Source: a candidate division SR1 bacterium Aalborg_AAW-1
GTDB lineage: Bacteria; Patescibacteriota; Gracilibacteria; Absconditabacterales; Absconditicoccaceae
Assembly (NCBI GenBank): GCA_001007975.1
Contig: CP011268.1
Coordinates: 868,001-932,000, forward strand
DNA length: 64,000 nucleotides
Reading direction: 5' to 3'
Position numbers and translations under genes: made by a program. The notes below the pieces were generated by a model that did no database searches, was not told the DNA's origin, and saw nothing but the letters and a program-made list of their open reading frames with translations. This document shows, piece by piece, positions 30,344 to 35,890 of this stretch; the first letter of the stretch is position 1; every line of letters begins with the position of its first letter.

Positions 30344-31702
30344 TTATACAAGAGTCTCTTGTTGTTGCATTCCCTCAACTCAAAAAATTTCTTTGAAGAA
30401 TTGAACTCTTTCTAAAGATCCCATCGCTTTATTGGGATTGTCAGAAAGTTTTACTGTAGATACTCGTGTCCCATCATCTCTTTGCACTTGAGAAGGTTTA
30501 ATAACTACTGAGAATGATCAGAATGGTGTTCAAAGACCATAGTCTGACACAATTGTATGCTTTGTATTATTAGTTAGAGAAGTACCAATACCGAAAGTAA
30601 GATTATTACTTACTCCGTATACATCCATGATGTCTTGTACAGCTTTAGCAGATAATCCATCACTTGGTATGCCAATGACTGATTTGGGATTTCTTCCATG
30701 TTGTTGTAAGAATCTATTATACTCAGCTATGCCGATAAGAGGATCTTTAGAATCAAATCTCATACCATCGTGATTCATAGCTATGTCTTGAGGACAATTA
30801 TTAAGATAAAATGATGTTCCATAGGTGTCGGCTAGTAAGATTCCTAATCAAGGATGATGTTGCATCCATTGTCTATCAATATCATACATAGTATCAATGA
30901 TGTCTTGTGGTTTATCCAGAAGAGCAGTAGGAATCATACGAAGTTCATGTGCATTAGTTCCTTTAGGATTGCTGAGTCCAAGTTCACGAGAAAGCAGTAC
31001 ATTACTTGTTCATAAACATTGATCTGGAGCTTGTTCCATTAATATATTGATAATAGTACGTTGAAAATCACTACTCATACTCCTTCTCGTACCAAACTCT
31101 GAAAAAGTTAGGTTATCTATGCTGTTATAAATTTTTATATCATCAAAGAGTCTTACCAGTGTTCTAGAAATCATCTCTGTAAAGGTTGTTGGTGAAAGAT
31201 GTGCTTTTTTCGTCCAATAATAGAGATAAAGAGAATTAATGATTTTTAATCAGATAATCTCCCACAATGTTGAATCAGCCCAAGTTCATTCAAATTGGAG
31301 AGTGTAATTTTTTCAATCATCTCAGATGGTAAAGGCAGGAAGTTGGAGATTTTTGAGATAATCGATAGTTTCTTCTTTAAGAAGACGTTTCCCATTAGCA
31401 GTATTGTGATTATTGTCCATTCCTCTAAGAAAAGAAAGATCTACATCAGTAAATTTTAATGTTCTACAGTGGGTGAATTGCTCTTCAAGCGCTTCTCTAG
31501 GGATAATATCTAGCGTTCTAATATCTTTGGATCTAATGTTCATCTCTCGTCTGACATTGACATCTCTATATTCTGGATGTGCGATAATAAAATCCAACAT
31601 CGTAAATTTATACATATCAGTATCAAGTAAAGAATGTATTTCCGGAACTCACCTTGCCGCTGCAAAAAAGTCACGATCAGTATATAATCAAATTTTATTC
31701 AT
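30344..31702 (-). CDS. pncB: Nicotinate phosphoribosyltransferase
   Basis: Joins nicotinate to PRPP to give nicotinate mononucleotide. The 452-residue protein has SLLDTDMYKFTMLDF near the N terminus, FSEFGTRRSMS with the conserved GTRR-type motif, GTNAHELRMIP and VIGIPSDGLSAK, FGIGTSLTNNT for phosphate binding. Length suits the family. It lies between nadE and nadM in the operon; with PncA upstream it completes the deamidating (Preiss-Handler) route. Confidence 0.94.
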
Positions 31703-31726
31703 GATTATTATGTGTTACTAATAAAT

Positions 31727-32542
31727 TTATGAAATAGTAAGAATTGGTGGCATATTTATTTTATGTGTATTTGCTTCATGTCTTTGCATATAGATAGTCA
31801 TAATTTTTTGTGCATATTCATCATCATAGTCTTGTGGTCTTTTTCAATGATCATATTGTTCCATAGCTCGTTCAAGTTCATCATAACTAGCTCCTATTTG
31901 ATCTTCATCTGTTGCTCAGGTTGGATGTAATCAGTCAGTAGGTTTTGCTTGTATAATATCTTGATTAATATTCATGTGTTGTGCTAGTTTTTTAACCTCA
32001 GATTTGAGAAGATTTCATATGGGACTAAGATCTACTCAACCATCACCATATTTTGTAAAGAATCATATGCCATAATCTTCTACTTTATTTCCTGTTCCTA
32101 TAACTAATCATTGATTTGCTTGTGCAATCGCATAAAGCGTAGCCATTCTTAATCTTGATCTGGTATTAACAAGGGCCATATAAAGTTCATCTTCAGCATA
32201 TCATACATGAAGAAGAGTTTCTTTGATTGTTTCAAATGTCTTAGTAAGATCAATAGTATGAGATTTTATATTTGGATAGTTGCTTTGTAACCAATCCATA
32301 TGGTTATTTGCACGATTGAGTTCTTCAATATTTTGATGGATAGGCATAGATATTAATATCGTAATAAGATCTGTTTTTGCACAGAGTGTAGAAACTGTAG
32401 CAGAGTCAATTCCTCCACTAATACCTACAATACAAGCTTTGCTCTGAGCTGTATTAGTTACATAATTTTTAATATCTGTAACAAGCTTGTTTTCTATCGT
32501 ATTATAATCAAGATTTCTGTTGGTTGCTTTATATGTTGTCAT
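31727..32542 (-). CDS. nadE: NAD synthetase (ammonia-dependent type)
   Basis: Converts nicotinate adenine dinucleotide to NAD with ATP. The 271-residue protein lacks a glutaminase domain. It has the PP-loop IVGISGGIDSATVST, the VNTRSRLRMATLYAIA helix, and GTGNKVEDYGIGFFTKYGDG with GVDLSPIG, all diagnostic for NadE. Operon member, 27 bases after pncA and 24 before pncB. Confidence 0.96.
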
Positions 32543-32569
32543 AGTAGTACACTTGTAAGAAGTAAAAAT

Positions 32570-33319
32570 TTATGAAATGTTGCTATTGTAAGAAGATAAT
32601 AATGCTTCGAGTTCTTGAGAAGTAATAAGTATCGCTCATTGTTGTTGAAGATTATATTGTACTATATTTCCTTGTTCTGGTGATATAGAAGCAATTGCAT
32701 CGGTGATAAGATAGGTTTTATATTGTTGAGCTAATGCTTCTAATACCGTATCTTGTATGCAATAATCAGTAGCTACTCCTGTTATGATAAGGCTATGAAT
32801 ACGATGTTTCCTCAGTACATCATTTAAGTCTGTTCAACCAAATCATCAATAAGGATGTTTATCTACTTGATGTCATTTACTGATATGAATATCAAATAAT
32901 TCTGGAGTAAGTGGTGGCATGAGTTCATGACTATTTGTTTCAGACCTAGCATGATCTGGTCGAAGAGTATCGGTTTGGTTTCTTCTGGATTGGAGATAAG
33001 ACTTGAGTTGGTCTACTCAGAACGCTGCTGTGTCAGATAATCTATTTTTTTCGTTAGTTCGATGTTGTATTTCATCATATGATATCATATCAAAAGGTTG
33101 TTTATCCTTATAGCTTGATGCGAAACTAATATGTCCATTAGGGTGTGATTCGAAGACATTAATGATTAAAAGATTATTATTCTGACAGATATTAATTATT
33201 GTTTTAGTCTGTTGCGCGACTAACTCACCATTAGGTACATAGAGTTCATGGAGTGTCTTATCTTCAAAAGTTTTTATATTATCGATACTGAGAAGGGCTA
33301 TTCCATTATTGGGTTTCAT
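32570..33319 (-). CDS. pncA: Nicotinamidase / isochorismatase-family hydrolase
   Basis: Deaminates nicotinamide to nicotinate. The 249-residue protein carries the expected Asp (LLSIDNIKTFED), a Lys-containing segment (ISKGHQVDKHPYGGF) and the nucleophilic Cys in ITGVATDYCIQDT, which match the nicotinamidase triad. The sequence is longer than many PncA by an insertion in the middle. Its position between pnuC and nadE supports nicotinamide as substrate. Confidence 0.88.
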
Positions 33320-33331
33320 AGTAACATATTG

Positions 33332-34009
33332 TTATGAGATAAATGTATGATCCTTTTGCTTTTTATAAAGTGAGTACCACTTTATGAGTCATCCAATAGC
33401 GATTCACAAGAAAAGTATGTATTCTATAGCGATGAAATGCACTCATTTGATGAAGTAAAGATAAATACCGATAATATCTACTATGATCCATAATACCCAG
33501 GCTTCTACTTTCTGACGAATCATAAGTATAGTTGCAGCAAAGCTTAGAATAGTTGTGAAAGAATCTAGTAATATATAACTTGCAGCTTGTGGGAATAGAT
33601 TGTTGAATCGTATATGGAGATGTGAGGTTATATAGGCTAATAATAAAGTAGTAATTGCTATTCATACTATATATAAGATTCTATTTTTATTCTCTACTAG
33701 TGTTATATTCTTATCTGATTGTTGTTGGTTTCAGTGCTTAGACCATATATACCAACCATAAAACCCTGTGACTATAAAATACAATTGTTCTCACAAATCA
33801 GCATAGAGTTGAATTTGATAAAATAGTGCTACATATAATAAACTTCCTATAAGTCCTACTGGTCGGTTTCGTATTTTGTTTTTAGATACGAGATACACAC
33901 ATAGTATGTTGAATAATGTTCCTACAAATTCTATATAACTCATCTGATAGTCTCCTATCGTGAAGATAATGGTATTGATGTTCAGATAATGTAAGATTAT
34001 TTCAGTCAT
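33332..34009 (-). CDS. pnuC: PnuC-type nicotinamide riboside transporter
   Basis: A 225-residue membrane protein with about seven helices. The family core is clear: MSYIEFVGTLFNILCVYLVS, NRPVGLIGSLLYVALFYQ, QLYADLGEQLYFIV and YGWYIWSK. PnuC lets nicotinamide riboside in by facilitated diffusion, trapped by phosphorylation through NadR. I chose the ATG at 34009 because it gives an N terminus of normal length; an in-frame ATG at 34099 would add 30 residues, and one at 33943 would start right at the core. The start lies inside the 3' part of the UGA=Gly nadR frame. Confidence 0.9.
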
Positions 34010-35006
34010 GATGAGTATTGTATAAAGATATAAAATGGTTATTAATAATGGTAATACATTGTTCAAAGCGTTGATTCCAATCGCTTCAAGTAATGACATG
34101 ATAGTCTATATTATTTTCTCTGAGTTGTCTTTTGTGAGATTCTTCAAGATTTTTTCTACGATTTTCTTCTATTCTTGTGCCATCCTGCGTATAAGGACAA
34201 TCAGTATTTAAGAAAAGATAGAGGTCTCATATATTGGTTTTTCTAATGTTTTCTCATACTATTAACTTCTTTTTGAAAAGGAATTGTGAATAAGATTCGG
34301 TGATTGATATATCTGAATCTATAAATAAAAATTTATTTGCTGTTTTCTCTCTTTTTTTTATTTCTTTGTAGTGGAGATGTGCAATATGGTATAAGTCATT
34401 ATATGTTACAGTATTAGTATGAGATATTATTAATCTTGCCATTTCTGGAACATACGTTGTGTCATAGTAATTTGCTAAGAGTTGTGTCATAGTAGATTTA
34501 CCAGTAGATTCAGATCAAACAATGATTATTTTTTTTGTAAAATATGATTTGGCATATTGATTAAGGTAATTTCGATAATGAAGTGGATTATTTCTAATCA
34601 TTGTTCCAGAGATAGGAATTATGTTCCTTGATAGATCAAAACAAACATGATCAATATTCATATACTCAGCTACATAATCTCCATATGGTTCTGAAGTAAA
34701 GATCACATCTACAGTTGGAAACTCTTTTTTGAGATAAGTAGATCGTAATAATGATATTTCTCTCGATGATTCACTACTAGATGGTAAGTCTTCTGTGATA
34801 TGTATGACGGATATATTTGAATATTCCTTATAGGTGTCTTTGACTCGTTTATACCTGACTTCTCATGGTATAGGTTCTGAACTTATCGAACATACCCCTA
34901 TAGTAAGGTGATGTGATCTTTCTAGTCCGAAAGTAATAAGTTCTTCATGACCAAGATGAAAGGGCATAAATTTACCAATAATGAGTCAGTTGTTATATTT
35001 TTTCAT
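33882..35006 (-). CDS. nadR: NadR-type NMN adenylyltransferase / ribosylnicotinamide kinase
   Basis: Bifunctional enzyme: N-terminal adenylyltransferase (GLIIGKFMPFHLGHEELITF, later PISGTMIRNNPL) and C-terminal kinase with P-loop IIIVGSESTGKSTMTQLL and VPEMARL. It lacks the N-terminal DNA-binding domain of enterobacterial NadR. The recognisable protein ends near VITGSDWNQRFEQCITI, about residue 325. At codon 335 (34004-34002) the frame meets TGA, overlapping the pnuC start as ATGACTGA. With UGA=Gly the frame runs on to TAA at 33882, adding 39 residues inside pnuC and giving 374. The extension looks unlike the family. First gene of the NAD operon. Confidence 0.9.
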
Positions 35007-35230: not shown

Positions 35231-35890
35231 ATGATTCAACAGCATATATTGATGACGGTAGATGGTATTATCTTTACTATTAAAGATCAATCACTTCAGG
35301 TTCTTTTGATAGAAAGATTACTTCCTCCTTTCGAACATATGCGAGCATTACCAGGATGATATGTGTTAGATAATGAAACTCTAGAGCAGGCTGTCTACAG
35401 AGAAGTACAAGAAGAAACATGAGTTAATAATGCTTATTTAGAACAATTGTATACATTCTCTGATCTTGATAGAGATCCACGTTGAAGACATATTACATGT
35501 GCATATATGGCATTGATGAGAAGTGATGATATAGATCTTCAAGCATGATCAGATGCTACAAATGCGAAACTATTTCCTGTTAATCAGTTGCCAGAATTGG
35601 CTTTTGATCATAAAAAAATACTTAACTATGCGATACAAAGACTAAAGTACAAACTTGAATATACCAATCTAGTACAGTATCTTTTGCCAGAAAGTTTTAC
35701 TTTGACTGAATTATATCAAGTCTATGATATAGTATTTCAACAAGATTTTGATATTAGAAATTTTAAAAAGAAAATTCTGAAACTCAATATTGTAGAACCT
35801 ACAGGAGAGAAGGTTGTGAGAGGAGTCCATAGACCAGCAATGTTATATAAGTTTATTACGCCAGATACTGCTATTGTAGAAATATTATAG
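35231..35890 (+). CDS. nrtR: NrtR-type transcriptional regulator of NAD metabolism
   Basis: A 219-residue protein with an N-terminal Nudix-like domain (VDGIIFTIKDQSLQVLLIER, GGYVLDNETLEQAVYRE, QEETGV) and a C-terminal winged-helix domain (about 145-215: ESFTLTELYQVYDIVF, then RNFKKKILKLNIVE and HRPAMLYKF). This order, and the closing RPA-LY-F motif, define NrtR, a repressor that senses ADP-ribose or related products. The Nudix catalytic pattern is complete, so activity may remain. Divergent from the NAD salvage operon with three operator-like repeats between. Confidence 0.92.

Follow-up and report, generated by a model that had tools for sequence, protein, structure and literature searches.

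Two bacterial lineages, SR1/Absconditabacteria and BD1-5/Gracilibacteria, decode UGA as glycine rather than as a stop (NCBI table 25; PMC4032931, PMC8080830). The assignment has been proven by proteomics in a BD1-5 bacterium (PMC4032931) and reported for Absconditabacteria (PMC8080830), and it has been suggested that foreign UGA stops are read through in these bacteria (PMC8080830). Under the standard code, neighboring genes may instead be linked by termination-reinitiation overlaps such as ATGA or TGATG, in which the stop of the upstream gene lies at or adjoins the start of the downstream one (PMC6728339). The third relevant system is the NadR family (TIGR01526; PDB 1lw7, 9x6f, 8x7f, and 6gye), whose members combine NMN adenylyltransferase and ribosylnicotinamide kinase domains and usually reach their C-terminus soon (some tens of residues at most) after the kinase domain, a trait that is not catalytically defining.

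All three meet in the window, that is, the whole stretch of 64,000 nucleotides analyzed here, which comes from the closed genome (1,044,756 bases, ~1.04 Mb) of candidate division SR1 bacterium Aalborg_AAW-1. The nadR frame (33882–35006, minus strand) runs from an ATG at 35006 for 374 residues under UGA = Gly, with seven UGA-Gly codons, whereas pnuC, encoding a nicotinamide riboside transporter of 225 residues (33332–34009, minus strand; six UGA-Gly codons), extends from the ATG at 34009–34007 to the TAA at 33334–33332. Where the two genes meet, the nadR frame reads GAC TGA (34004–34002) AAT ... ATC TAA (33884–33882), and it passes through this UGA, codon 335, at the site where relatives usually end. 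The locus shares with other table-25 bacteria a sole RF1, a tRNA(UCA), and UGA at conserved glycines, and thus the decoding mechanism is the same (PMC4032931, PMC8080830); what is new is that a stop is lacking beside the start of a gene. Both genes belong to an NAD salvage cluster, nadR-pnuC-nicotinamidase-nadE-pncB (30344–35006, minus strand), and a gene for an NrtR-like Nudix regulator (35231–35890, plus strand) lies divergently from it.

Decoding of UGA in the host genome

A genome search with an RF2 model returned one release factor gene, whose score fell under the RF2 cut-off, and curated models identify its product as RF1 (NF001859, 437.5 against 400; TIGR00019, 425.7 against 423). With nothing above the RF2 cut-off in the genome, RF1 is the sole release factor found. 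RF1 recognizes UAA and UAG. A tRNA with the anticodon UCA is encoded at G000:C1:450769; it is labeled SeC by ARAGORN, but its GCG...CGCU acceptor ends are common to both tRNA-Gly of the genome, so that glycine identity, charging included, is predicted for it. In a 464 kb sample of genome stretches, which served for the genome-wide codon, overlap, and start statistics, TGA makes up 2.25% of codons and about one-third of glycine codons, the same frequency as GGA.

The same usage holds within nadR, where TGA occupies seven of the 15 glycine codons. Among 44 NadR sequences, no variation is seen at the UGA-encoded G164 (in the P-loop) or G307, and G7 is nearly invariant (at least 90%). Because the genome has RF1 only and a tRNA(UCA), and because other UGAs of nadR stand at conserved glycines, codon 335 almost certainly encodes glycine. 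The sequence-only reading had kept open that UGA still terminates here, with an old coupling overlap in use. The coincidence of codon 335 with the family end speaks for this; however, RF2 is missing, tRNA(UCA) is present, and nadR contains six further UGAs read as sense, some of them at conserved glycines, so that a stop at this codon alone is very unlikely and the idea can scarcely be credited.

A ribosome on nadR would thus insert glycine at codon 335, owing to the UGA = Gly code and the absence of RF2, translate another 39 codons that lie within pnuC but out of its frame, and terminate at the TAA at 33884–33882, the first code-25 stop of the frame past the family end. The length of this extension agrees with what had been read from the sequence, 39 codons counted from the TGA to the TAA, or 40 if the UGA is included. 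On sequence grounds the arrangement of the two genes is genuine, and read-through is what should be expected when nadR is decoded.

The end of NadR and its 40-residue tail

NadR of the window matches TIGR01526 over residues 5–314 (2.3e-51), although the score lies under the curated cut-off of the model, as does that of its match to PRK08099; AAA_28 is matched at 8.5e-23, and the structural matches are the four PDB entries named above, of which 1lw7 is a NadR. Both enzymatic domains are present, as in the family, and similarity to models and structures covers residues 5–325, ending at 314–325. The family-like part can be placed at residues 1–334 (34005–35006, minus strand), with similarity ceasing near residue 325. 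Unlike the family, this NadR lacks the N-terminal DNA-binding part and carries a 40-residue tail beyond the family end.

In 83 relatives, 10–47 residues (median 19) follow the conserved Arg313, and 15–22 in the Bacteroidota and phage neighbors. In the window NadR, 21 residues separate Arg313 from the UGA, and the total of 61 exceeds that of all 83 relatives, so that this protein does not end soon after its kinase domain. The earlier statement that the family-like part ends just before the UGA therefore holds, the UGA lying at Arg313 +21 against the relatives' median of 19. In the alignment of relatives that had been proposed as a check, their stops fall in the same region as the UGA, but beyond residue 325 no homologous codon can be matched. 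No homologous tail was found in standard-code NadR relatives, the discovery of which would have counted against the sequence-only reading.

The missing stop might also reflect an indel introduced by sequencing or assembly towards the nadR 3′ end, the true frame stopping at a TAA. Frame +2 does carry TAA at codons 321, 322, and 336; nevertheless, such stops are expected in an AT-rich alternative frame, and the in-frame C-terminal helix can be aligned with relatives as far as about residue 325 and is confidently predicted by AlphaFold, making an error of this kind very improbable.

The tail itself, GNNLTLSEHQYHYLHDRRLSDELYRICRNIIQHTMCVSRI (33885–34004, minus strand), lies inside pnuC in another frame. 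Its search against the open reading frames of relatives gave no convincing match, and no Pfam family exceeded its cut-off. Weak blastp matches (best E 0.042) were discarded, being located outside NadR C-termini, and a single Pfam match below threshold (E 0.044) was disregarded. AlphaFold assigns a pLDDT above 90 to most of the enzyme and no confident fold to the tail, where values are mostly under 65: below 50 at residues 333–352 and 370–374, and about 60 between. With a codon score of −0.098, the tail lies closer to the out-of-frame medians (−0.164 and −0.176) than to the gene median (0.139), but this test is weak given that pnuC itself scores low (−0.018). Both nadR and pnuC are compositional outliers for this genome, with mean codon log-odds of 0.032 and −0.018 against a first percentile of 0.033 for other genes.

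The NadR product would accordingly be a normal bifunctional enzyme with a 40-residue tail that, by structure prediction and sequence comparison, probably lacks both structure and function and most likely arose as a neutral consequence of stop loss. Could the tail instead have been selected as a functional, dual-coding extension? It still contains no TAA or TAG even though TGA is one step from TAA, and a helix is predicted at residues 351–373, at low confidence. Yet it has no homologue and a low pLDDT, its codon score resembles that of out-of-frame sequence, and open runs of at least 40 codons are ordinary, occurring in the same relative frame in 17% of other genes and surviving in the nadR frame in 8% of synonymous resamplings of pnuC. 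A function is therefore improbable, and we infer that the tail is translated and lacks one.

The overlap and the initiation of pnuC

Codon 335 overlaps the pnuC start at 34009 as ATGACTGA, just as had been read from the sequence alone. Under the standard code this would be an 8-nt overlap of the termination-reinitiation type (PMC6728339); here, in contrast, UGA is sense, pnuC has a leader of its own, and overlaps are rare genome-wide. The effective nadR stop lies 128 nt inside pnuC (overlap 34009–33882), and, UGA being sense, no stop is found at or adjoining the pnuC start. Overlapping same-strand pairs number only 7–8 of 273 in the 464 kb sample, and the next longest overlap measures 116 nt. 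That overlap, at L068:4085-5516, has no UGA near its downstream start, and in the sample no UGA was seen at the downstream start of any of the four overlaps of 12 nt or longer besides that of nadR and pnuC. A 128-nt overlap is thus unusual for this genome. Neither the 40-codon open run nor a TGA near the start is remarkable: over start and frame combinations, an out-of-frame TGA occurs within 9 nt either side of the start in 30% per frame, and in the relative frame of nadR its rate is 4.8% per codon, with about 44% expected within 12 codons.

Initiation in this genome relies little on Shine–Dalgarno (SD) motifs. SD-like cores are rare at gene starts (8.9% against 4.5% at control offsets), and the starts in the 464 kb sample show U-rich sequence instead, between −26 and −16. 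The 16S rRNA (G000:C1:323734-325222) ends in ATCACCTTTG, whereas the canonical 3′ end is ATCACCTCCTTT; the anti-Shine–Dalgarno core CCTCC is missing. It may be added that 182 of 387 called starts in the sample begin with ATGA, although UGA is unusable as an overlapping stop here.

A U-rich pnuC leader lies at 34010–34041 (minus strand), within the 3′ part of nadR (roughly codons 323–333). With this leader and the bases after the ATG, the start at 34009 scores 4.92 in the position-specific model, above 97% of true starts, and only 0.1% of internal ATGs score higher. A protein begun at 34009 has an N-terminus with homologues in the PnuC of three Patescibacteria (L004, L006, and L058). An inner ATG at 33943, preceded by AGGAG, was rejected as the start: it scores at the 12th percentile in a genome that hardly uses SD motifs, and the N-terminus upstream of it is homologous in L004, L006, and L058. 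A start at 34099 was ruled out by the start-context analysis.

By its sequence context, pnuC thus appears to have its own initiation signal at 34009, in the final stretch of family-independent nadR codons, and, since its leader scores at the 97th percentile, its expression would be independent of NadR termination. It would be initiated from the U-rich, SD-less leader, and termination-reinitiation coupling of the two genes would be impossible under this code as well as unneeded. Of the coupling overlap proposed earlier, then, the 8-nt ATGACTGA geometry under the standard code stands, but the strong start context of pnuC leaves coupling without a role.

Origin of the junction and the lost stop

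Relatives of the two genes were sought in 49 genomes of the order and family, 288 + 353 of the class, and 379 of the phylum, as well as in other genome contigs and viral contigs. Only distant relatives of nadR or pnuC were found in these genomes and contigs, close ones in none. Among the 49 order/family genomes, a full nadR occurs in the window genome alone, and no close pnuC was found in the other order/family or class genomes searched. NadR groups with sequences from Mucilaginibacter, Chitinophagaceae, other Bacteroidota-like sources, and a huge phage (set support 96/97). PnuC, on the other hand, is 48–51% identical to Patescibacteria (51% to class relatives) and 31–38% to the tested Bacteroidota-like genomes and phage. 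The two genes therefore seem, from sequence relationships, to be of different origins, nadR from the Bacteroidota/phage clade and pnuC with its nearest found relatives in Patescibacteria. Most relatives that have both genes nearby carry them in the order pnuC→nadR. An uncultured phage (LR756501.1, a 735 kb record; 421054–428019) has, downstream of its pnuC, a nadR at 39% identity that belongs to the clade of the window gene, and a Chitinophagaceae locus has two NadR-like proteins and one PnuC side by side. Given the differing ancestry and the pnuC→nadR order of relatives, the nadR→pnuC junction was probably formed in this lineage or in an unsampled donor. As six internal codons of nadR are UGA-Gly, the gene would have been under the UGA = Gly code for long.

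Once a nadR of Bacteroidota/phage type had come to lie upstream of a Patescibacteria-like pnuC, an in-frame terminator would have been lost. From the sequence, that terminator may be either a donor UGA at codon 335 or a nearby TAA, for example at codons 328–329 (TTA TAC; 34020–34025, minus strand). A TAA or TAG at about codons 326–330, before or within the pnuC leader, could have disappeared through a point mutation that turned TAA into TTA or TAC, or through a small deletion, in which case the UGA in ATGACTGA is merely an out-of-frame triplet of pnuC codons 2–3. Codons 328 and 329 are each one base from TAA, and an end there, 14–15 residues past Arg313, falls inside the range of relatives; moreover, genes of this genome normally end ahead of the next ATG, and it is the pnuC leader that encodes the last residues before the UGA. 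Then again, a stop of this kind is seen in none of the relatives where codons can be aligned, and in so AT-rich a stretch many codons are a single step from a stop, so that the chances of such a loss appear about even.

Alternatively, and as a more specific version of stop loss that names the codon, the UGA at codon 335 may have been the true terminator of a standard-code donor or ancestor, overlapping pnuC by 8 nt for coupling and later captured as glycine. Its position at Arg313 +21 fits the 15–22 residues of Bacteroidota and phage relatives, at least one near relative (L093) terminates in TGA, and read-through of foreign UGA stops has, as noted, been suggested for these bacteria. Against it, an out-of-frame TGA is common in this frame, one being expected within 12 codons about 44% of the time, as given above; a donor nadR→pnuC pair with such an overlap is undocumented, as the usual order is pnuC→nadR and the genes have different sources; the six internal UGA-Gly codons point to a long stay under this code; and pnuC does not require coupling. 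Such a fossil stop is one plausible origin of at least two, possible but rather doubtful. The ancestral stop proposed earlier is thus upheld only as far as the UGA lies where relatives stop; it may have been captured, but loss of a TAA at 328–329 fits equally. Slightly more doubtful still is the fuller account, in which nadR arrived by transfer from a bacterium or phage using the standard code and retained a UGA stop that the host reads as glycine, giving a new 40-residue tail over the pnuC N-terminus that is tolerated or used.

Whichever codon was lost, read-through of the UGA, a probably non-functional tail, an independent pnuC start, and stop loss after nadR and pnuC were joined together form, in our judgment, a likely explanation. 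What it draws on is all read from sequence: the glycine code and the lack of RF2, a nadR frame that stays open beyond the end of the family, the context of the pnuC start, and the phylogenetic placement of NadR.

The case leaves knowledge of NadR and of the genetic code unchanged. It offers a concrete example of how termination fares for a gene that has entered a genome without one of the stop codons, or has evolved there: the enzyme would gain a tail, the overlap would be useless for coupling, and the downstream gene would depend on its own SD-less leader.
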